Positions 837 through 32,744 of a DNA stretch of 32,744 nt are shown here, piece by piece. The notes beneath the pieces are model-generated. The model had not been told where the DNA came from. It did not search any database and saw only the letters and a program-made list of their open reading frames with translations. The translations under genes and the position numbers were made by a program. Origin of the DNA: a virus. The first letter of the stretch is position 1. Each line of letters begins with the position of its first letter. The DNA lies in the IMG/VR virus record IMGVR_UViG_3300044977_000177, positions 1 through 32,744 of that record, one strand, 5' to 3'.

Positions 837-1007
837 ATGGTTGAAGCGATCGTTCTAGCCTGCATTTGCGCATACTTGGCTGTCGCGGCCGTTCATGCTT
901 GGGACAACAAACAAGCGAAGAAGATACGTGACGCACGCCACAGCGGGAAATCCGCATCCGAAGTAATCGCAGAGGGCAAAGCCAATACGCTTCACGGTTG
1001 GGACTGA
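837..1007 (+). CDS. Small single-pass membrane protein on the opposite strand
   Basis: This 56-residue frame fills the gap between the fibre gene and the 992-2380 gene and reads against both. Residues 2-20 form a hydrophobic helix (VEAIVLACICAYLAVAAVH), followed by a basic region (KQAKKIRDARHSGK) and a short polar tail. That pattern fits an inner-membrane peptide with a cytoplasmic C-terminus. The frame overlaps the 3' end of the neighbouring minus gene by 16 nt. No clear Shine-Dalgarno precedes the ATG at 837; a GTG at 831 and a TTG at 828 in the same frame are alternatives. I do not recognise a family. A holin-like or exclusion role is possible but unsupported. Confidence 0.45.
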   Translation: MVEAIVLACICAYLAVAAVHAWDNKQAKKIRDARHSGKSASEVIAEGKANTLHGWD

Positions 1008-2380
1008 TCCGCCGGTTCCCCTTGCTTCCCCACCAGCGCGCCAAATTGATCGGCGTAGGCTGCTACCCTGGCATTGGCGGCGTCGAGCGGGATTCCGCTG
1101 CCTCTATGCACGGCAATTGCGAGTCGCGATTTAACAATCGGATCGTCCAGCGCCGCTTTCATCACTCCCGCAACGGCCGCTAATTTGTTGCTGCCCGTAA
1201 CCGCTTTCGCCGCGCCAGCGGCGACCGGTGTCCCGATTCCAAGAAGTTGGTGATTACTGATGCGGTTGACCGCTCTTTCGAGAGAGGGCTGTAAATCGAG
1301 AAGCTCGCTCTCCGCACCGTTAAGATTAGAGAGTTCAGGGAAGGCCATCGCCAGCTCTTCCTTCAAACCACGCGCGAGGGCCTTCTGCGATTCGATTGAT
1401 GCGCTTTGCAACTCGCCGTAAGCTTTCGAATCGAGTTGCCGGTACGTGCCCGTTTTCATCGCCTGCGCATCCTCGGCGTTGATTGGCGCAAGGTTCTTTG
1501 GTCCTTGTGCGCCAGGGGGAAGTGGGCTCGTCGAGCGATTGCGCAAGAATTCATCACGCGAGTCGGCGATCGCCGCGAGATCGGCATCTGGATTGACCTG
1601 ATTCGCGAATTTATTTTCAAGTCCCTGCGTGCGCGCCGCGACGGCGGTTGGACTGATCGGCCGGGTTGGGTCGGCCTGAATTTGTGCCGTGATCTTTTGA
1701 TTCAGGTCGTCAATTTTCGAGGCGAGCGTTTCAATCCCCGCTTTACTCACCGGGATTCCTTGCTCCAGGCCTGTGTTCACAATACGTGCGCGCTCAGCCG
1801 GATTTAGTGTGGTCGAGGGCTTGAGTGCGCTTTCGTAAGCCGCTTCGGGAGTGCGACCAAGCAAAAGGGGTTTCGTGATCACCGCAGAAGGAATGGCGTC
1901 GGCTGCGGCCCCCGCAATTTCCGGTGCTGCCACGTTGGTTGCGATCCCCGCTGTCATGCCAGCGCCTTTCGCATACTGCCCGTTCTGCATCATGTCGCCA
2001 GCCGCATCCGTTTGAGGCCCCAACACGGGGAGCATGTAATTCAGAAAATGCCGAATTCCTTGGGCATAATCTCCCCGATCGAACGCGGCCTTCGCTTTTT
2101 TCTCCACATCCCCCTGATTCTGGAGAACAGTGGCCGCAGTGTCGATGGGGTGATAAAAGGCTTGATCGACGCCCTTGATCGCAGAGACAGGATTCACTTG
2201 GTTCCACCATTCCTTCGCGAAATCCGAAGCAGAATCGAGCCACGAGCGGGGCGCGGGCGGATTGTTGTCGCCGCCACTGATAAGCGTCGCGCCTGGAGGC
2301 AACGCCATCGAAAGCGGTGGCTGAGAACCGCCGCTTACTAAAGTCGCTCCCGGAGGAAGCGTCATTCCAGTATCTGACAT
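992..2380 (-). CDS. Putative ejection (internal virion) protein, third of three, gp16 position
   Basis: The product has 462 residues. It begins with two imperfect copies of a short motif, LPPGATLVSGG and LPPGATLISGG (residues about 8-37). Next comes a tryptophan-containing region (SWLDSASDFAKEWWNQV), a Gly/Ala-rich hydrophobic stretch around residues 150-180, and a long helical region with heptad-like spacing. The start ATG lies 1 nt past the stop of the upstream gene. The three genes from 5307 to 992 occupy the place of P22 genes 7, 20 and 16, whose products leave the virion with the DNA and help it cross the envelope. Sequence similarity to gp16 is not evident to me, so the call rests on position and composition. 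Confidence 0.6.
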   Translation of the reverse strand: MSDTGMTLPPGATLVSGGSQPPLSMALPPGATLISGGDNNPPAPRSWLDSASDFAKEWWNQVNPVSAIKGVDQAFYHPIDTAATVLQNQGDVEKKAKAAFDRGDYAQGIRHFLNYMLPVLGPQTDAAGDMMQNGQYAKGAGMTAGIATNVAAPEIAGAAADAIPSAVITKPLLLGRTPEAAYESALKPSTTLNPAERARIVNTGLEQGIPVSKAGIETLASKIDDLNQKITAQIQADPTRPISPTAVAARTQGLENKFANQVNPDADLAAIADSRDEFLRNRSTSPLPPGAQGPKNLAPINAEDAQAMKTGTYRQLDSKAYGELQSASIESQKALARGLKEELAMAFPELSNLNGAESELLDLQPSLERAVNRISNHQLLGIGTPVAAGAAKAVTGSNKLAAVAGVMKAALDDPIVKSRLAIAVHRGSGIPLDAANARVAAYADQFGALVGKQGEPADQSQP

Positions 2381-2381
2381 T

Positions 2382-4388
2382 TTAATTGCCGCTTAATTTC
2401 GTGTAGTTCGCCAGGTCGGCCGTGTCTCCGCTTCCTTTGTACTGATATTTCTGGTCGCCGATCTCGATCACATGGCCACCACTACCGCCGCCCGTCGTCT
2501 GCGGAGATAACTTATTCAACGTTCGCTGCGCTTCGGGAGTGATGAATCGCTTCTGGAAGTCATCGCGCTGCATCGTGTTTTTGTACTGATTTTCGATGGA
2601 GCCGATCTTCGAGCGAAGCAACTGTGCCGTCACCGCGGCGTTATCTTTAAGCTGTTTGTTTCCGAGACTCGGATCGAAGTCCGCCGCCGTGGTTCCCCGT
2701 TCGCCTTCGCCGCCGCCACCTTGTACATAGGCTGCGGTCAGTTCCGGGCCGACTCGATGAATGATCGTGTTGAGCGTGGTGACAGGAGTGTCACCGGCCT
2801 GGACGCCGATCTTGTTCGCGATCTCGCGCAACGCTTTCACTCCTCCGTCGCTATTGTGCAGCGCGTCGATGGCATCGTTCAGAACTCCCACGTGGCCAAG
2901 GGCCGTATTGATGGCATTGATCTGCGTTGCTTCCGGCCCCGAAGTCATTGCGGTCATCATCTTGTTGCGTGCGGGGAACATCGTCTCGTCATGGGTGGGA
3001 TCGATCTTCTGCACCCACTCGCTGATCGCGCTGTTGACGGGATTGTTGCGTCCCGCTGGCGGCAATGCTTGACGGTAATCGACGATAGCCTGAACCCGCC
3101 CGCGGATCGCTGGAGGAACGTCATTAATGGAAGGTGTGCCGGCCGCGCCCCCGCCGCCCGCGCCCGAAGCAGTGGGACCGAGACCGCCCCCATTCGCATT
3201 CATGTTGATATTGAATTGCGGCACCAGGGTCTTCATGTGCTCGTAGGCTCGATTGAATGCAGTATCTTCGGGGCTGAGGGGCTGACCGGCATTTTGCCGC
3301 GCTTGATTCATCACGTAGCGGCCTTCGAGCATCGCCGGACTCATCACGCCGCCATTAATGCTTGAGACTTCTCCGGTGTCGGCATGATAGACCGCTCCGA
3401 GTTCCGGGAAGGGAATAAGATTCGCTTTGCGCGCTTCCGCTTGCGACTTCGCTGCTGCACTCGTCTTTTCCTGCGTAGCAGCTAATGCGGCCGCTTCCGA
3501 CATGACTTGCTTATGCAATCCCAGCTCTGCCGCCGCCTGATCTAAATCTCTCTCGTCAGTTAAGACTGGTTTGAAGTTTCCGATGGGGATTCCCAGGCTG
3601 TTCAGACGGATCAATTCTTTCTGGTAGGCCATTTGCGCTTCGGGCGTGATGGGACGGGGCGCGTTGGCGGCAGAGTCTTGGAGGGCCGCTTCGGTAGAAG
3701 TAGGAGTGGCGCCGGGTTGTGGGGCCCCAAGCGATTCGGGTGTGCCCGGAGGAGCGGAACCGGTTTGAGGCGCTGGCGTACCTGCGGGTTGACTCTTGAG
3801 CAGGGCTTGCGCCGCAGGCATATTCGGCAGCATTGCCGCGGGCATTCCATTGGTTCCTGGGACGGGAGGTCCGAGGGGATTTTCAGCGCCGGAAACTGGA
3901 GAGGGCGCAAGTGGCGTCGATGTAGCCTTCGGTGCGCTCTTGTCCTGAATGTCGCGGACTGAGTTCAGGCTGTTCGCGATTTCGTCGTTGACTTTGTCGG
4001 CGTGCGCGAGCTGCGCGTCGCTCAATCCCAGAACTGCTTTCTGCATCTCGACCTGCTTCATCCGCATGGTGGCGATGTTGGCGGGATCGGCTCCTTGTTC
4101 GAGCATGGCGTTGTACAAACCTTCGGTGTCGAAGCCGATGGGCTTGCCATTCGCGTCTTTCTGCACGAACTGAGGCGCTAGCTGGCGGCGGGTCATCTCA
4201 TCTTTCAGGGCGAGAGCCTGCGCTTGATTAGAAGTCTGCTGGGCTTCGGTCTGGGCCTGGATGGCCTGTTGGCGCGCAGCTTCGGTTTGAAGGGATGCGG
4301 CTCGCTGAAATTCTGCGAGCGCGTCCGGCGGAGGAGCCGGTGCCGGTTTGTTCACGTCGAGTTCGGGAAGTGGAATGGTTACGCCCAT
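2382..4388 (-). CDS. Putative ejection (internal virion) protein, second of three, gp20 position
   Basis: The product has 668 residues. The N-terminal 110 residues are Gln/Ala-rich and probably coiled coil (EAARQQAIQAQTEAQQTSNQ). A long Pro/Ala/Gly-rich low-complexity stretch follows (about residues 150-240), then a second helical part and a Gly-rich linker near residue 400. The C-terminal third contains KTLVPQFNIN and IGDQKYQYKG. The gene begins 4 nt after the upstream stop, with no obvious Shine-Dalgarno, so translation is probably coupled. Position between gp7-like and gp16-like genes suggests a DNA-ejection protein that travels inside the capsid. No enzymatic motif, such as lytic transglycosylase, is visible. 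Confidence 0.6.
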   Translation of the reverse strand: MGVTIPLPELDVNKPAPAPPPDALAEFQRAASLQTEAARQQAIQAQTEAQQTSNQAQALALKDEMTRRQLAPQFVQKDANGKPIGFDTEGLYNAMLEQGADPANIATMRMKQVEMQKAVLGLSDAQLAHADKVNDEIANSLNSVRDIQDKSAPKATSTPLAPSPVSGAENPLGPPVPGTNGMPAAMLPNMPAAQALLKSQPAGTPAPQTGSAPPGTPESLGAPQPGATPTSTEAALQDSAANAPRPITPEAQMAYQKELIRLNSLGIPIGNFKPVLTDERDLDQAAAELGLHKQVMSEAAALAATQEKTSAAAKSQAEARKANLIPFPELGAVYHADTGEVSSINGGVMSPAMLEGRYVMNQARQNAGQPLSPEDTAFNRAYEHMKTLVPQFNINMNANGGGLGPTASGAGGGGAAGTPSINDVPPAIRGRVQAIVDYRQALPPAGRNNPVNSAISEWVQKIDPTHDETMFPARNKMMTAMTSGPEATQINAINTALGHVGVLNDAIDALHNSDGGVKALREIANKIGVQAGDTPVTTLNTIIHRVGPELTAAYVQGGGGEGERGTTAADFDPSLGNKQLKDNAAVTAQLLRSKIGSIENQYKNTMQRDDFQKRFITPEAQRTLNKLSPQTTGGGSGGHVIEIGDQKYQYKGSGDTADLANYTKLSGN

Positions 4389-4392
4389 AGGT

Positions 4393-5307
4393 TTATAAGC
4401 CGTAAGGATTCAGCGTCGGAGCCGATCCCGGAATCGCGAGCGGATTGTAAGGCGCGGGAGCACCGATGCCAGCGTAGGGATTGGCCGTGGGAGACGGGGT
4501 TCCCGGCACATCGACATACGGGTCGCCGGTGAGTCCGCTGGAGTTGTAGTTCAGAATTCCCCCGCTGTTGGTGCCATAATTCGGGATTTGCGAGAGCACC
4601 AAGCCTTGCGTGACTCCATTCGCCACACCGTTCAGCATGTTCGAGTAGGCGTTGGCTTGTCCCACGTCTCCGGCTGCGATGGCTGCGCCCTGGTTGTTCA
4701 GTTGCGAGGCTTGCTGCTGGCCGCCGGTCAAATACAGGTTCGAAAGGTTGTTGGCTGCCGACTGCCCGAAGGAACCGAGCTGCTGTGTCGCCGAAAGCCC
4801 GCTATTGACGCCCTGTCCAGCGGCGTTCAGGTTCGTCAGAAATTGGGTGAGCGCATTCTGGTAGGCCTGCTGGTAGGTGGTAGTTGCTAATCCCTCGCCG
4901 AATTTCTGCAGCGCCGTGCCGGTGTTCCCCGACATGAGGTTCCCGGTGGCAGCCGCATTTTCATCGATCGCCTGTGTCCCCGTCTGCAGGTTGAACTGGT
5001 AGCCGGGAGTCTTTTCCGCTTGCGCGAGCGTCGGCGCGGTGAACGGATTTTTGAGAAGGTCGGCATAGGCGTTGGCCGAGGTCGAGCCGAGTTGGAGATA
5101 GGGCTGCTCCGCCGTCTGCTGGCCGGTCCACTCGTTATTCTGGAAGGTGACGCCCGCCTGCTGATTCTGCTGTTCAAGCTCTTGGGCTTGCTGGGCATAG
5201 GTTTTCTGGGCTTGGGCCGCATTTCCGGCGGCGTTGCCCTGCATGATTCCTCCGGCAATGGAGGAGCCGATACCAGCGACGGCGGCGATGGTGCCAGTGA
5301 TGGACAT
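4393..5307 (-). CDS. Putative ejection/DNA-transfer protein, first of three, gp7 position
   Basis: The product has 304 residues. It opens with a glycine-rich hydrophobic segment (TIAAVAGIGSSIAGGIM, residues 4-20), then a Gln/Ala coiled coil (AQKTYAQQAQELEQQNQQ). The middle, GYQFNLQTGTQAIDENAA followed by GNLMSGNTGTALQKFG, is a pattern I associate with internal virion proteins of many podoviruses. The C-terminus is Pro/Gly/Asn-rich. P22 gp7 is somewhat shorter (about 230 residues). The gene is separated from the minus-strand GNAT gene by a plus-strand cassette (5327-6092), so it may need its own promoter; I could not identify one. No Shine-Dalgarno precedes the ATG. Confidence 0.62.
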   Translation of the reverse strand: MSITGTIAAVAGIGSSIAGGIMQGNAAGNAAQAQKTYAQQAQELEQQNQQAGVTFQNNEWTGQQTAEQPYLQLGSTSANAYADLLKNPFTAPTLAQAEKTPGYQFNLQTGTQAIDENAAATGNLMSGNTGTALQKFGEGLATTTYQQAYQNALTQFLTNLNAAGQGVNSGLSATQQLGSFGQSAANNLSNLYLTGGQQQASQLNNQGAAIAAGDVGQANAYSNMLNGVANGVTQGLVLSQIPNYGTNSGGILNYNSSGLTGDPYVDVPGTPSPTANPYAGIGAPAPYNPLAIPGSAPTLNPYGL

Positions 5308-5512: not shown

Positions 5513-5691
5513 AGCACCGTTCCATTGAATTCACAAAAACTTTTTCTCCAGTCGCCGGAAAACTAATAGCTATTCGCATTGACTGGCGCGAGCGCGGCAA
5601 GAAAAGAATCAAGTTCATTCCCGAAACCGATTACCGATATGCCCGCTCCATGGCTTCGAAAACTACCTTCGGAGGATTTATTAAGCGATGA
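5509..5691 (+). CDS. Second gene of the opposite-strand cassette, small basic protein
   Basis: This is a 60-residue basic protein (MKHRSIEFTKTFSPVAGKL, then DWRERGKKRIKFIPETDYRY). It is rich in Lys, Arg and aromatic residues. Both ends overlap neighbours as ATGA, upstream with the 5327 gene and downstream with the Tat-signal gene at 5688. The charge suggests contact with nucleic acid or with an acidic partner, but no domain is recognised. Three consecutive ATGA junctions on the strand opposite to the late operon are unlikely by chance. Confidence 0.6.
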   Translation: MKHRSIEFTKTFSPVAGKLIAIRIDWRERGKKRIKFIPETDYRYARSMASKTTFGGFIKR

Positions 5692-6092
5692 ACCGCCGCA
5701 ACTTTCTCTCACTCTTTCCCGCTGCCGTCGCTGGCATCGCGTTGCACGAAGCGATCCCGTTCAATCGGGTGTGGAGCTTCCCGTCGAAGATCGCAGTGCC
5801 ACAGTCACCGTTTGATTTCAGCGAGAATTATGAGAACTCGTTTCGGGAACTGAATCGAATAATGGACCAGTGGCAGAATGCGCGGCAATTCTGGTATCGC
5901 GACCCATCGGGGCGAATCTGGATGTGGCCCGAAGGACAAACCGCGCCGATAAAAGTGAGTTACGTTGCCGATCCTGCCGAGTTTCGCTCAGTCGAGGCTA
6001 CAGCACCTTCTGCCTCACCACATCTGTCTTTTCCCATCCCAGCGCGTCGAGCAGTTCGCCCGACTCAAAATGTAATTTCGTTGAGATCGTAG
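5688..6092 (+). CDS. Exported protein with twin-arginine (Tat) type signal
   Basis: The product has 134 residues. The N-terminus MNRRNFLSLFPAAVAGIAL fits a Tat signal: two arginines, x, F-L, then a moderately hydrophobic core of about 14 residues. The mature part has SFRELNRIMDQWQNARQFWY, then DPSGRIWMWPEG, which looks like a small folded aromatic-rich domain. The start overlaps the preceding stop as ATGA. The last 95 nt run opposite to the 3' end of the GNAT gene at 5998-6453. A Tat substrate would be exported folded, sometimes with a cofactor, but no cofactor motif is evident. I do not recognise the family. Phage-borne Tat substrates are uncommon. Confidence 0.6.
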   Translation: MNRRNFLSLFPAAVAGIALHEAIPFNRVWSFPSKIAVPQSPFDFSENYENSFRELNRIMDQWQNARQFWYRDPSGRIWMWPEGQTAPIKVSYVADPAEFRSVEATAPSASPHLSFPIPARRAVRPTQNVISLRS

Positions 6093-6453
6093 CTTTCTTC
6101 ACGCCTTCCCGTCGCAACTCGTTTTCTGCGAAGCGCAGCAACTTGGCTCCCGCGCCGCCTTTCCGTTCACCCGGGAGAAGATAGAACATATCTGTCGTGG
6201 AGACTTTGCCGCCGTCTTTATTGTGCGGATGATGTGAGATCACGATGCCCACGTAGTAGCCGATCAATTTGCCGTCGCGCCGCGCGGTGACGACTAAGAG
6301 GAAGTGATTCCGCTCCAAGTTGAAATAAAATTCATGGTCGCAGCCCATGGGCATAACGTCTTTATGCAGGGCGAGTTCGTCAAAATGGACCCGGAAGATC
6401 GGTTCGGCCTCGCGCTGCATGGCGGCCCAGGATTCGCGCTGGAAGGTCAGCAT
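5998..6453 (-). CDS. GNAT-family N-acyltransferase
   Basis: The product has 151 residues from the ATG at 6453. A longer reading from 6495 exists, but the 6453 start overlaps the stop of the 51-residue gene as TAATG and is preferred. The acyl-CoA-binding motif A is visible as ERKGGAGAKLLRFAENEL (R-x-x-G-x-G/A type), preceded by a beta strand FLLVVTARRDGKLIGYYVG and a VSTTDMFYLLPG strand. The C-terminal FESGELLDALGWEKTD matches the end of the GNAT fold. The family transfers acetyl or longer acyl groups to amines. The substrate is unknown. GNAT genes near tail genes are known in podoviruses, but here it sits in one coupled run with an acyl carrier protein, so acyl-ACP is a possible donor. Confidence 0.85.
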   Translation of the reverse strand: MLTFQRESWAAMQREAEPIFRVHFDELALHKDVMPMGCDHEFYFNLERNHFLLVVTARRDGKLIGYYVGIVISHHPHNKDGGKVSTTDMFYLLPGERKGGAGAKLLRFAENELRREGVKKATISTKLHFESGELLDALGWEKTDVVRQKVL

Positions 6454-6608
6454 TAAGCTTGCGCAACGGGGCCGTAGATGCCGAAACTGCGCCAACGAGA
6501 GCCCCAGATCAAGGTAAGGGAAAGCTTCGAGTGGCCAACCTGATACAGGTTGTCGCCATGAACGGTCACCGCGAATCCGACGCCAAAAAGAACCAGCGAA
6601 AATATCAT
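6453..6608 (-). CDS. 51-residue membrane or secreted peptide
   Basis: A short frame begins at an ATG at 6608 behind a strong Shine-Dalgarno (GGAGGAAG, spacing about 6) and ends in a TAA that overlaps the GNAT start as TAATG. Residues 2-16 are hydrophobic (IFSLVLFGVGFAVTV), then HGDNLYQVGHSKLSLTLIWG, then an Arg/Trp-rich part (SRWRSFGIYGPVAQA). It can be a single-pass membrane peptide or have a cleavable signal. The good ribosome site and the exact overlap support a real gene. Its place between the ACP and the GNAT gene suggests membrane-associated work with one or both. Confidence 0.75.
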   Translation of the reverse strand: MIFSLVLFGVGFAVTVHGDNLYQVGHSKLSLTLIWGSRWRSFGIYGPVAQA

Positions 6609-6630
6609 GGTTGCTTCCTCCAGCCTCAGC

Positions 6631-6825
6631 TTATACCGCGACTGCCTTCACAATATCGCCCACCGTCTCAATTCCCACTTCTTTCTCCCGTGGAACTTCG
6701 CACTTGAGCATCAATTCCATGAATCCCAGCGAGTCGACTCCCAGCGAATCGAGCGTGGTGTCGAGCGTGATGCCGTCGATTCCCAACTCGCTCTGCACGG
6801 TTTCAATAATTTGCTCTTGCGTCAT
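6631..6825 (-). CDS. Acyl carrier protein-like protein
   Basis: The product has 64 residues. The 4'-phosphopantetheine attachment motif is clear: LGVDSLGFMELML, with Ser32 in D-S-L. The preceding LDTTLDSLGV and the C-terminal GIETVGDIVKAV match helix I/II entry and helix IV of bacterial ACPs. Ordinary ACPs have about 77 residues, and here about seven seem missing between helix II (ELMLKCE) and the VPREKE turn. The ATG overlaps the upstream stop as ATGA (6822-6825), fixing the start. A longer frame upstream (to 7176) exists only because the reading is open. The carrier would need host phosphopantetheinyl transferase. Acyl carrier proteins are rare in phages; the neighbour two genes on is a GNAT transferase. 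Confidence 0.85.
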   Translation of the reverse strand: MTQEQIIETVQSELGIDGITLDTTLDSLGVDSLGFMELMLKCEVPREKEVGIETVGDIVKAVAV

Positions 6826-7169
6826 CCGACCTTGTACCAGTCCGTTCCGTTGGATTTGATCTTGAAAGACTGCCACTGCGCCGTCAGCGTTAGCGGGCCT
6901 TCCGGTAGGTTTCCGCCGACTCCGGCTAGGGTAAAGGTATTCCCGTCCGCCGAGATTTTCTTGTACGTGATTTCCTGATTCTGGTTCGTCTGCCCGGTGG
7001 AGGTGTTCAATCCGGCTTCCGGGGGATTCTCTTCGTAGCTGCCTGCCGAGGTGTCGACGAGTCGCAAAGGAGCAACTTGCTGTGTCTCCAGTTCCCAGAA
7101 CTGCATCTCCGGGCGAAGGTCCGCATGTTTGGTCGGCGGAAGGCGGCGGATGGTCTGGGTTGTCGGCAT
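6822..7169 (-). CDS. Probable virion protein with C-terminal beta module
   Basis: The product has 115 residues from the ATG at 7169, which overlaps the stop of the YodC-like gene as TGATG. The N-terminus is Pro/Thr-rich. The C-terminal half, ADGNTFTLAGVGGNLPEGP then LTLTAQWQSFKIKSNGTDWY, matches a module often found at the end of phage structural proteins (L-T-A-x-W-x-S-x-x-x-x-S-D/N-G-T-x-W-Y). It is probably a small decoration, tail or adaptor protein. It ends with an ATGA overlap to the ACP gene, so its translation is linked to the ACP cassette. Confidence 0.7.
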   Translation of the reverse strand: MPTTQTIRRLPPTKHADLRPEMQFWELETQQVAPLRLVDTSAGSYEENPPEAGLNTSTGQTNQNQEITYKKISADGNTFTLAGVGGNLPEGPLTLTAQWQSFKIKSNGTDWYKVG

Positions 7170-7351: not shown

Positions 7352-8887
7352 TCACGTGATCTTCCTTACCTGCTCGCTCAACCGTTCGCCCTTCTTGTAG
7401 ATCGCCTCTCCGTTGCAGGTTGCATTCAGATAAGCGTCGGCGATTCGCCACGGGATCGGATCGGAGCCACTCAGGGCAAAGGATCGATTCCTTGATCGCC
7501 CGAGCTTCGTTTTTCGGATTCGCACATTCACATCGCCCGCCTGCCCGCAGTCGAGATAGTACGAGTTGCTCTTGACGGTGACGTTGTCAAACCATTCCAG
7601 AATCACTTGCGGGCCGCGCGGCTGGCCGTCTCCATCGAGCAAGGGCGGCTGCGGTCCGAGGCCTTTCTGGATGTCGAACTGAATCTCCTCGAAGTAAATC
7701 CACTCGTTTTCCGCGGAGATATTGGGACTGCGCCGGTACCAGCGCAGCGGATTCCCGAAGTCGGTGTAGAGATTGATCGACATCTGGTAAATGTTGCCGG
7801 AGACCCAATCTCCAACCAGGTGCACCCCGCCAAACTCCATGTGCGAGGTGGAGCGGTGCGCCGAGTAGGTTCCATTCGCGACTTGCCAAAAGCCGCGCTT
7901 GTGCCAGAGCGACGTTGAAAAGTCGTACACCCATGTCACGTTCGCGGAAGGGAAGCGGATCACCCAGAAGTTATGCCCCTGATCCTGATAGGCGTAGGCA
8001 ACCGCGTCAGAGATGGTCGCATAGCTCTGCCAGGCGAATTCGACCGCCAGTGTCGAGATGCGGATTCCCACGTAGGATCCCATCATCTTCGCCACGCCCT
8101 GCCCGCGCTCGTTCAGGGAAATCCAGCACACGGTATCGTTCGCCTGCACTGTGCCGAAGGCCGCCGCCGCCCCATCTTCGAGGAATGCGCCTTGAATCGG
8201 GATGAATGGCGGGTAGCCGGCGCCGGCGTTGTAGTAGGCGATGGATTTCTTGCCGGAGAAAAACCAGACTTCCCGGTGATCGACTTTCATCGAAACGATA
8301 TTGTCGGGGAAGTAGGAGATGGTCGAGATAAACAGGCCGCTCCAGGTGGTGCCGTCTTCGAGGTTTGAGACCTGAAAAGTATTCGAGTTCTGGATGGTCG
8401 CGAAGAAATAGCCGTCGCAGAAATCGATCTGCAGCACCGGCCCGTTGAACTGCCCCATATTGACGGCAAAGAATTCGTTCGCCGGATGAAAGACGCTGCT
8501 CGAATCGGTGAAGGCGGTTAAGACGAAGATATAGAGATCGCCGTTCGAGAGAATCAACAGGTGGGTCTGGCAGGAGAAAATCTGCGTCGGCGAAGTCGGC
8601 GGCCCGTTCAGCTCGCCCCACTGCGTGAAGTTCGGCGTCTTGCTGGGCAGTAGTTCGTAAAAGTTCGATGCAGCCGCGAAACCGCGCCCATTCACCGTAA
8701 ACAGTCCCGGCACCGACGCTTCGGGCAACTGATAAACGATCTGCGTTCCCGGCGTGTGCATCAGCGTGACAGCGGCTTTTGCTCCCGGCGTCTCCGGAGT
8801 TTCCGGGTACAAATTCATACACTCTTCCGCATCCACGTTGGGGGATTGGAGAAGGTAAGCGCCGGAGCAGAAACCGAAGCGGGACAT
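7352..8887 (-). CDS. P22 gp10-like tail hub / packaged DNA stabilisation protein
   Basis: The product has 511 residues, close to P22 gp10 (472). The N-terminus has VDAEECMNLYPETPETPGAK, then TPGTQIVYQLPEASVPGLF, a pattern typical of this family (N-x-Y-x-E ... P-G-x-K ... T-P-G). Repeated beta-propeller-like strands follow, for example FCDGYFFATIQNSNTFQVSN and SMKVDHREVWFFSGKKSIAY. The family closes the portal after packaging and joins the tail needle or spikes. The position just downstream of gp4-like genes agrees. The ATG at 8887 precedes SRFGFCSGAY and is the natural start. Confidence 0.88.
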   Translation of the reverse strand: MSRFGFCSGAYLLQSPNVDAEECMNLYPETPETPGAKAAVTLMHTPGTQIVYQLPEASVPGLFTVNGRGFAAASNFYELLPSKTPNFTQWGELNGPPTSPTQIFSCQTHLLILSNGDLYIFVLTAFTDSSSVFHPANEFFAVNMGQFNGPVLQIDFCDGYFFATIQNSNTFQVSNLEDGTTWSGLFISTISYFPDNIVSMKVDHREVWFFSGKKSIAYYNAGAGYPPFIPIQGAFLEDGAAAAFGTVQANDTVCWISLNERGQGVAKMMGSYVGIRISTLAVEFAWQSYATISDAVAYAYQDQGHNFWVIRFPSANVTWVYDFSTSLWHKRGFWQVANGTYSAHRSTSHMEFGGVHLVGDWVSGNIYQMSINLYTDFGNPLRWYRRSPNISAENEWIYFEEIQFDIQKGLGPQPPLLDGDGQPRGPQVILEWFDNVTVKSNSYYLDCGQAGDVNVRIRKTKLGRSRNRSFALSGSDPIPWRIADAYLNATCNGEAIYKKGERLSEQVRKIT

Positions 8888-22994: not shown

Positions 22995-23564
22995 TTACCC
23001 CGCAAGTCCCTGAGAAACCAACTCGTCCACTTCGCTCTCCGCCAGCCGCGCATAGATCAGCGTGTTGGCGCCGTTGACGTGTCCGGCGCGGCGCTGGCCG
23101 GCGGGGACTCCGTATTTCTTCACGACGTGCGAGACGATCGAGTGTTTCAGGACCGTGGTTTTTGCTTTGAAGCGTGGGATGCCGGCGGCGAGCGCGATTT
23201 TCACCAGGTGGCGCCAGTAGGTCCAGCGGGTTCGCGGATAGAGCCTCTGCTTCGGCTGCATTTTCCAGACGAAGTCCGGCACGACTTTGGTTTCGTTCAA
23301 CAAATCATCTTTGGAATGCACCAGGCGCTGCCGGCAGGGCTCGGATCCTTTCCCGCGCGTGTAGGTGATGAAGCCATCGGCAAAATTCTTGGCCTGCAGG
23401 TGGATCATTTCCGAGTTTCGGCCGGCATGGTGGTACTGGATCAGCATCAGCAGGTATACCGGGTAATCTGTTTCGCGCGCTTTTACGAGAACCGCGCGCA
23501 GCTCGTCATGGGTGAGCGCGATCGGCGCCGGGATGGCCCGCTTCCGTCGTTTCGTTTTAGGCAA
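22995..23564 (-). CDS. Tyrosine recombinase catalytic domain, with substituted active-site residues
   Basis: The 189-residue product has the layout of the catalytic domain: ALTHDELRAVLVKARE, box I HHAGRNSEMIHLQ (Arg49), beta-hairpin YTRGKGSE (Lys72), box II TTVLKHSIVSH, then RRAGHVNGANTLIYARL (His162, Tyr171 the probable nucleophile). At box II the usual H-x-x-R is T-x-x-K (Thr137, Lys140). So Arg-II is replaced by Lys and the first His by Thr, which may lower activity. It starts at a TTG at 23564 that overlaps the preceding stop. The N-terminal core-binding part is in the preceding frame (23557-23784). Confidence 0.72.
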   Translation of the reverse strand: MPKTKRRKRAIPAPIALTHDELRAVLVKARETDYPVYLLMLIQYHHAGRNSEMIHLQAKNFADGFITYTRGKGSEPCRQRLVHSKDDLLNETKVVPDFVWKMQPKQRLYPRTRWTYWRHLVKIALAAGIPRFKAKTTVLKHSIVSHVVKKYGVPAGQRRAGHVNGANTLIYARLAESEVDELVSQGLAG

Positions 23565-32236: not shown

Positions 32237-32744
32237 TCAATTAAACCAGTTTCGCACTTCCGCTAGAATCTCTCTCTTCAATGAGGCGCATTTATCCTCA
32301 TCCACATGCACGACTGGCGGATATAAAGCCACAATCCAGAGCCGTTCCCCTTTCCACTTTGCGGGATTGAGCGTGGCGTGCAGCGCTCCAGGCTTGCAGG
32401 GATGAAGCGGTCCTTTCATCTCTTCGATCATGCCGACGCATCGCGCCGGACCACTGCCGCCATTGGCGGGTGTGCCATCTTTGGCAGATCTCCAGAACGC
32501 CAGCACCGCGCCTTGTTCGCGCAAGAGCGAACCGCGCTCCCCGATGACTGATGCTATAACGGCCTCCCTGTAAGCGACGACCTCGGCCCCGTCCCCGTCC
32601 CCGTCCCCGGACCCGTACCCGTCCCCGGACCCGGCCCCGTCCCCGTCCCCGTCCCCGTACCCGTACCCGTCCCCGTACCCGTCCCCGTCCTCGGCCCCGT
32701 CCCCGGACCCGGCCCCGTCCCCGTACCCGGACCCGTACCCGGAC
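32237..32744 (-). CDS. Gly-X repeat protein with DUF7666-like C-terminal domain (partial)
   Basis: The frame is open from the window edge to 32237, so the N-terminus is missing. The first visible 55 residues are Gly alternating with Asp, Tyr, Ser or Ala (for example GDGYGDGYGYGDGDGDGAG), encoded by a hexanucleotide repeat. Then come GAEVVAYREAVIASVIGERG and LLREQGAVLAFWRSAKDGTP. The C-terminal part, EMKGPLHPCKPGALHATLNP then KWKGERLWIVALYPPVV, resembles DUF7666 phage proteins. A TTG at 32524 is a possible internal start, but the continuous sense reading through the repeat argues for a longer protein. The function is unknown; Gly-X tails may be flexible or adhesive. Confidence 0.7.
   Translation of the reverse strand, partial: SGYGSGYGDGAGSGDGAEDGDGYGDGYGYGDGDGDGAGSGDGYGSGDGDGDGAEVVAYREAVIASVIGERGSLLREQGAVLAFWRSAKDGTPANGGSGPARCVGMIEEMKGPLHPCKPGALHATLNPAKWKGERLWIVALYPPVVHVDEDKCASLKREILAEVRNWFN
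32582..32744. repeat. Hexanucleotide tandem repeat array
   Basis: About 27 units of the form CCC-GTC, CCC-GTA, CCC-GGA or CCC-GGC, without interruption of the reading frame on minus, reach the window edge. Two units carry CTC in place of CCC. Such arrays expand or shrink by slippage in steps of two codons. Confidence 0.9.

Follow-up and report, generated by a model that had tools for sequence, protein, structure and literature searches.

Why would a short-tailed phage encode an acyl carrier protein (ACP) beside a GNAT-fold transferase, and what could such a pair act on? The window (the whole stretch of DNA that was analysed) is a virus record of 32.7 kb, assigned to the short-tailed type by its structural genes. 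By Pfam it encodes a P22-like portal, and by PHROG a phrog_283 major head protein, an Hc3 head-closure protein and a phrog_598 DNA-ejection protein. On the minus strand, the Hc3 block and the ejection block flanked the ACP gene, a 51-aa ORF and the GNAT gene. The features, from the upstream border on, were as follows.

7352 to 8887, minus strand: head-closure Hc3 (stabilization) protein, the upstream border (phrog_578, E 2.6e-75)
6822 to 7151, minus strand: small ORF, 109 aa as read, directly upstream of the ACP gene; without Pfam or PHROG family
6631 to 6825, minus strand: ACP, 64 aa (PF00550, E 1.9e-8), with Asp31-Ser32-Leu33
6453 to 6608, minus strand: 51-aa ORF with hydrophobic N-terminus; without family
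5998 to 6453, minus strand: GNAT-fold acyltransferase, 151 aa (PF00583, E 2.8e-8; phrog_1249, E 2.2e-14)
4393 to 5307, minus strand: gp7-like ejection protein gene (phrog_598 'DNA ejection', E 3.1e-18)
2382 to 4388, minus strand: long protein, probable second ejection protein by gene order; without confident family
992 to 2380, minus strand: third protein of the ejection block, placed by gene order alone; no Pfam match at E<=0.01

The preliminary description had placed three ORFs at 5998-6825, and all three were present on the minus strand. It was also right in calling them coupled, since the starts of the ACP and GNAT genes each overlapped a preceding stop. The ACP ATG shared bases with the stop of the ORF at 7151-6822 (ATGA), and the GNAT start, the ATG at 6453, overlapped the stop of the 51-aa ORF (TAATG). 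The small ORF upstream of the ACP gene was found at the same position in L002, L004, L005 and L006. About 690 bases separated the GNAT gene from the next minus-strand gene, the first ejection gene, and a plus-strand ORF stood between them. The GNAT gene shared the strand of the ejection gene and preceded it by a short distance, a T7 gp13-like position. Relatives of the 2382-4388 protein occurred in the same order in L002 and L005.

The plus-strand ORF (5688-6092) overlapped the 3' end of the GNAT gene inside the minus-strand operon. It began MNRRNFLSLFPAAVAG, a twin-arginine-like leader. Similar leaders with different tails were seen in ORFs opposite the strand of the structural genes in L002, L005, L020, L044, L054 and L056. 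Elsewhere in the window, a phage integrase family protein of 189 aa (22995-23564, minus strand; PF00589, E 7.3e-8) was encoded near the terminase small subunit (PF03592), so the phage may be temperate. The right end (32554-32744) was a simple repeat that, read in one frame, encodes chiefly Gly, Asp and Ser, and it was open in several frames at the edge of the record.

The ACP had been described as carrying an intact D-S-L site at Ser32, and this reading held. The protein matched PF00550 with 34.9 bits (curated cut-off 20.8), and phrog_5934 weakly (E 0.013). In its AlphaFold model (mean pLDDT 84.9, pTM 0.62) helices spanned residues 3-14, 32-41 and 55-62, with Ser32 starting the second. In an alignment of 22 ACPs, Asp31 and Ser32 were the sole invariant columns. 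Leu33 was present in 21 (Met in L148), Thr54 was nearly invariant, and identity to the window ACP was 18-37%, L002 aside. The DSL was also read in ten further ACPs from a GNAT-only query. PF00550 was matched at E<=0.01 by 20 of the 22, and the net charge of the ACP core was -5 to -16 in 21 of 21. Like AcpP and the phrog_5934 ACPs, the window ACP thus combines the PF00550 profile, Asp-Ser-Leu, acidity and helices, whereas the ACPs at this position are short and hypervariable. The window ACP is itself a short one, with a much reduced helix III region. A core of just ~58-65 aa, lacking most of that region, was likewise seen in the ACPs of L002, L140, L145, L227, L229 and L236.

Whole records were also searched. 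PF00550 at E<=1 was matched in nine of 11 phage records, once in each and above the cut-off in seven. AcpS (PF01648) was found in none of the 11, against 10 of 14 control genomes; this absence carries little weight, as seven of these records were shorter than 15 kb. The sequence features and the model appear to be the marks of a working carrier that would rely on the AcpS of the host.

The 51-aa ORF matched neither Pfam (E<=1) nor PHROG (E<=0.1), and it was present solely in the window and its near-copy L002. Between these two, its frame carried six synonymous codon changes (one of them in the stop codon) and two non-synonymous ones. Read in the other two frames, the same changes gave one synonymous against seven non-synonymous, and three against five. 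This suggested that the ORF is probably a real gene, accessory and not conserved. Membership of this peptide in a conserved three-gene cassette was rejected, because in the 30 contigs besides these two, with starts as guessed, the ACP and GNAT genes overlap or are separated by just a few bases, too few to accommodate it. Of the cassette as first described, the ACP-GNAT pair therefore stood (32 contigs), and the membrane peptide did not (window and near-copy only).

ACP and GNAT genes in unrelated places in homologous phages would have spoken against the linkage. This was not what was found: the ACP gene lay just upstream of the GNAT gene in the window and 31 other IMG/VR contigs. The search with the window GNAT returned five loci. 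L002, a near-identical contig (the same as L003), had all three genes. L004, L005 and L006, whose GNATs were 87, 81 and 67% identical to that of the window, each had a distinct small ACP-like ORF with DSL before the GNAT gene and lacked the 51-aa ORF. No ACP was detected by HMM in L007 (GNAT 32% identical). In L012, found by ACP alignment, the GNAT was just 34% identical, and the ACP gene again overlapped it.

IMG/VR was then surveyed by the neighbour genes. Hc3 led to 32 loci; the ejection protein was used twice, and the 80 best of 537 relatives were taken from one search and the 80 best of 418 from the other. Our own ACP and GNAT HMMs were run on six-frame ORFs of at least 40 aa (13,300 ORFs, 218 loci). 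The first ACP HMM was built from five seeds, and the seed was widened in later rounds. The five-seed HMM detected ACPs outside the seed in L024, L025, L026, L031 and L043, each just upstream of a GNAT gene; the wider HMM added L057 and then ten more contigs. Among 180 distinct viral contigs, 21 ACP ORFs were found at E<1e-3, and a GNAT gene came next in 21 of 21. The ACP stop and GNAT start (starts guessed) overlapped or lay a few bases apart, except in the window and L002 with their 51-aa ORF.

The position before the ejection gene, hereafter the slot, was resolved in 165 contigs. It held an ACP with a phrog_1249-like GNAT in 19, such a GNAT alone in 42, a DUF2824-like GNAT in 30 and neither in 74. 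Slots with a phrog_1249-like GNAT thus numbered 61, of which 19 also had an ACP; of the 104 others, 0 had one (Fisher p 8e-10, uncorrected for kinship). This GNAT class was set by our own HMM, with ACP-linked GNATs among its seeds. Outside the 165 were 12 contigs without a detected ejection gene and three with that gene at the edge. L004 and L006, in which the sequence ends soon after the GNAT gene, were counted among the 21 and not among the 165.

A query made of the GNATs of ACP-linked phages alone gave an ACP just upstream in 18 of 18 loci. Ten of these were new contigs, all ten with an ACP. An ejection gene followed the GNAT gene directly in 17 of the 18, and none was found in the short L232. 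Since the queries were picked from ACP-linked relatives, these figures describe the stability of the pair within the group, not its frequency among phage GNATs. Together these observations make a strong case that ACP and GNAT are coupled, and a two-gene module ahead of the ejection genes is well supported.

How common are phage ACPs outside this module? The preliminary description called them rare, and in INPHARED they were: E. coli AcpP matched 39 of 50,697 records at E<=0.1, 12 of these being labelled 'Bacteriophage sp.'. The window ACP gave two weak matches in INPHARED (E 0.4 and 0.6), and the L026 ACP gave zero. ACPs in other contexts were seen in MW202777, Erythrobacter R6L, Olleya Harreka_1, pf16 and phiXF1, and the five public phage records taken for their ACP gene also matched our ACP HMM. 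No GNAT-annotated neighbour of the ACP was present in the five of the 39 INPHARED records examined; the neighbours in those five were a RusA nuclease in one and proteins without Pfam family in three, with pf16 judged by annotation. In L133, L134 (an Erythrobacter phage), L135 and L137 the ACP gene overlapped the following gene, which encoded the RusA nuclease in L134 and a protein without Pfam family in the other three. In one study, 'acyl carrier protein' is named, without context, among predicted accessory genes of Acidobacteriota virus genomes (PMC11924767). No paper on a phage ACP-GNAT pair was found among the matches listed, mostly outside subscription journals.

The acyl-CoA pyrophosphate loop of GNATs has the motif [RQ]xxGx[GA]. 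The window protein had been called a GNAT-fold transferase with a normal acyl-CoA loop, and both parts of this agreed with the searches. It matched PF00583 with 34.5 bits (cut-off 20.7), and its loop, RKGGAG, is canonical, with the same letters in the near-identical L002. Three Acetyltransf families, and no other, were listed for it at E<=1 in Pfam. The AlphaFold model (mean pLDDT 94.1, pTM 0.88) aligned with many GNATs of the PDB at Z about 16 over 127-148 residues. The structural matches, for which Foldseek was also run, included RimI, GNA1, SSAT and aminoglycoside acetyltransferases, and those listed were GNATs of the acetyl-CoA type.

The loop pattern was matched by 12 of 21 ACP-linked GNATs, one of which (L147) may be spurious, against five of 40 unlinked ones. 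The loop was thus not lost as it might be in an ACP-only enzyme, and its loss as a sign of pure ACP use was not seen. A basic surface on the ACP-linked GNATs was also considered and set aside: the mean net charge was +0.8 for linked (n=21) and -0.6 for unlinked GNATs (n=40), with overlapping ranges, a difference too small to be decisive. His77 and Asp88, candidates for a His/Asp catalytic dyad such as that of HlyC and CdiC, were conserved in at least 90% of 17 GNATs, ACP-less ones included. Judged from the model and the loop, the GNAT would fit either ordinary acyl-CoA chemistry or an ACP arm in the same cleft; these features decide neither.

A GNAT tree was built from 48 sequences, 12 of them ACP-linked (those then known); it carried a long-branch warning for some, L026 among them. 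Nine ACP-linked GNATs formed one supported group (97/85), and the L026 GNAT fell in another well-supported group (99/97). Two GNAT subfamilies are thus paired with an ACP, L026 standing apart from the rest. The ACP label required four changes on the tree, compared with a mean of 10.9 after shuffling, and well-supported branches forced two. This suggested that the pair probably arose more than once or was often lost.

The ACP gene itself differed much more than its surroundings. Between the window and L004, Hc3 was 90%, the ORF before the ACP 87% and the GNAT 87% identical, and the ACP 38%. For L005, L006 and L025 the ACP was 34, 33 and 29% identical and the GNAT 81, 67 and 66%. Over these four comparisons the ACP was 29-38% and the neighbour genes 52-90% identical. 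From these sequences, the ACP gene would appear to be either swapped between phages or very fast-evolving, the protein found there being again an Asp-Ser ACP. It follows that any ACP-GNAT interface must be tolerant.

What the pair might act on was sought in its position. In 91 of the 165 resolved contigs our HMMs detected some GNAT in the 2.2 kb that precede the ejection gene. A GNAT held the same position in several annotated INPHARED relatives, and no ACP was detected by HMM near the GNATs of the annotated INPHARED phages examined. BPP-1 and two environmental phages differed: their related GNAT was encoded next to the terminase instead of the ejection genes. The slot of other IMG/VR contigs held DUF2824-like GNATs, one of which matched phrog_651 'head morphogenesis', the P22 gp14 type. 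The bacterial-genome scan with Hc3 gave a single match, a Betaproteobacteria MAG, with a DUF2824-like GNAT in the slot and no ACP there.

Other slots held other proteins. One had a sulfotransferase-like domain fused to a GNAT, a weak match (E 0.0016, below the Pfam cut-off); further occupants were SET domains, an aspartyl/asparaginyl hydroxylase and cupin-like proteins whose PHROG matches are annotated as tail fibre. Differing slot proteins were seen, for example, in L074, L111, L126, L082 and L010. Of the 74 contigs with neither GNAT class nor ACP, 69 had an ORF in place, and 67 of these were scanned (two near-copies were left out). The scan gave 13 Cupin_2, three SET and one hydroxylase. Each of phrog_12032, phrog_24280 and phrog_34170 was matched by 45 of the 67; phrog_12032 and phrog_24280 carry a tail fibre annotation, which, for the largest slot group, does not help the modifying-enzyme view. 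This site in the genome may serve to house enzymes that modify proteins. Because some slot proteins are such enzymes, a virion or ejection protein would be favoured as the target.

The first ejection protein was compared over 91 contigs and three GNAT classes. No lysine was specific to the ACP-linked phages: the best column had lysine in 47% of the ACP-linked class, against 81 and 67% in the two others, and a class-specific target lysine in this protein was therefore rejected. Residue 2 was Ser, Gly or Ala in 16 of 19 ACP-linked phages and Pro in 17 of 30 DUF2824-linked ones, with starts guessed and kinship uncontrolled. This difference in sequence is only a lead.

Enzymes of related fold are known to draw on carrier proteins. 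N-acyl amino acid synthases and LuxI have a GNAT-related fold and use an acyl-ACP donor. The window GNAT resembles them in fold; neither they nor any other known acyl-ACP enzyme was among the PDB matches listed for the GNAT model. A GNAT of a cobavirus (pc40) has been likened to T7 gp13, for which a role in virion morphogenesis is suggested (PMC6775973). T7 gp13 and pc40 are GNAT-fold genes beside internal virion or ejection genes, as in the window; compared with slot GNATs of the T7 gp13 type, the 32 contigs here add an ACP gene just upstream. What is known already is GNAT genes beside phage internal virion genes, and what appears to be new is the paired ACP.

A second precedent comes from delivered toxins. 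One paper describes CdiC as a lysyl acyltransferase that is encoded beside a delivered effector and lipidates a lysine of it, and HlyC and CyaC as its relatives, toxin activation depending on acyl-ACP (PMC8510554). CdiC is the closest worked precedent for the acylation that we propose for the ACP-GNAT pair. All three enzymes modify a delivered protein, and the pair here adjoins ejection genes and would likewise use acyl-ACP as donor. Unlike them, the GNAT here matches ordinary Acetyltransf families, with no match to the HlyC-type Pfam family at E<=1, and has an ACP gene of its own.

We propose that the AcpS of the host would attach 4'-phosphopantetheine to Ser32 of the ACP, and that host fatty-acid metabolism would load an acyl group onto this arm. 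The ACP would pass the acyl group to the GNAT encoded beside it. The GNAT would then transfer it to an amino group, that of a lysine or the N-terminus, of a co-expressed virion protein. The most likely target would be one of the ejection proteins, which have to enter the envelope of the host at a later stage. The products of 4393-5307, 2382-4388 and 992-2380 are the candidate substrates, the latter two by their place in the gene order. We give this model as a whole about an even chance. Against it count the acetyl-CoA-type folds among the structural matches, the CoA loop that was kept, the want of a class-specific lysine in the first ejection protein, the divergence of the ACP, the many slot GNATs without an ACP, the related GNATs beside the terminase and the tail fibre annotation of the commonest non-GNAT slot proteins. 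Acyl-ACP is the probable donor, by a modest measure; an ejection or other virion protein as the target falls slightly short of an even chance, and a role of the acyl group in envelope passage is tentative.

Other readings of the pair turn on the same observations, and the first two given here are the main rivals. The acetyl-CoA-type fold and the CoA loop in 12 of 21 linked GNATs would suit an enzyme that uses acetyl-CoA or another acyl-CoA, with the ACP as acceptor: either its arm would be loaded, or an amino acid bound to it would be acylated, giving a small molecule or a loaded carrier. The strict pairing and the invariant Ser are also in keeping with this. On the other hand, we noticed no gene of biosynthesis in the stretch that runs from head closure to ejection in the loci inspected, the whole-record searches relevant to biosynthesis having covered AcpS and PP-binding in 11 records, and we consider an acceptor role unlikely. 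Host ACP is a subunit of non-lipid complexes, and most slot GNATs do without an ACP (42 contigs of the same class and 30 DUF2824-like). The GNAT might therefore acetylate a virion protein from acetyl-CoA, as the other slot GNATs presumably do, and the ACP would then be a subunit with a regulatory or stabilising role, or would sense the lipid state of the host. If the role of the ACP were purely structural, there would be no need for Asp and Ser to be its sole invariant columns, which makes this rather improbable.

The rapid change or allele replacement suggested by the ACP (29-38% identical beside neighbours at 52-90%) would be explained by conflict, if the ACP were a decoy that competes with host ACP or its partners, stalling lipid synthesis or evading defence, and the GNAT modified this decoy. 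Its position among virion genes and its pairing with a GNAT speak against a decoy, to which we assign a low probability. The preliminary description had also allowed for an independent ACP, that is, a gene for lipid metabolism or host takeover that shares the operon while the GNAT has a separate role. Phages with ACP genes in other contexts do exist. However, 31 of 31 other contigs with a slot ACP have it before the GNAT (the 51-aa ORF lying between in L002), 0 of 104 slots without a phrog_1249-like GNAT hold an ACP, and L026 pairs its ACP with another GNAT subfamily. An independent ACP is disfavoured because the pair is linked in 32 contigs with the attachment Ser in each, and we hold it to be very improbable.

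The reading that we prefer, acylation of a virion or ejection protein by the GNAT from host-armed ACP, can be carried further with less assurance. It is possible, though doubtful, that the pair is a self-contained acyl-ACP-dependent module with which the phage lipidates the proteins that it will eject, ahead of packaging, and thereby enables the injected channel to insert into the envelope of the host. Such a module might, equally speculatively, be a phage equivalent of the toxin-activating acyltransferases, and an example of a wider slot whose enzymes modify injected proteins (acyl, perhaps sulfo, methyl or hydroxyl). The preliminary description had spoken of N-acylation or lipid modification 'at the membrane during late infection'. 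The pair stands ahead of the ejection genes, and the proteins these encode work at the envelope of the host, which makes this more specific.

The presence, in 32 contigs, of an ACP dedicated to a GNAT points to the transfer of acyl groups by way of a carrier protein, a proposal that is testable. If true, acylation of virion proteins would be an overlooked step in the crossing of the envelope by short-tailed phages.
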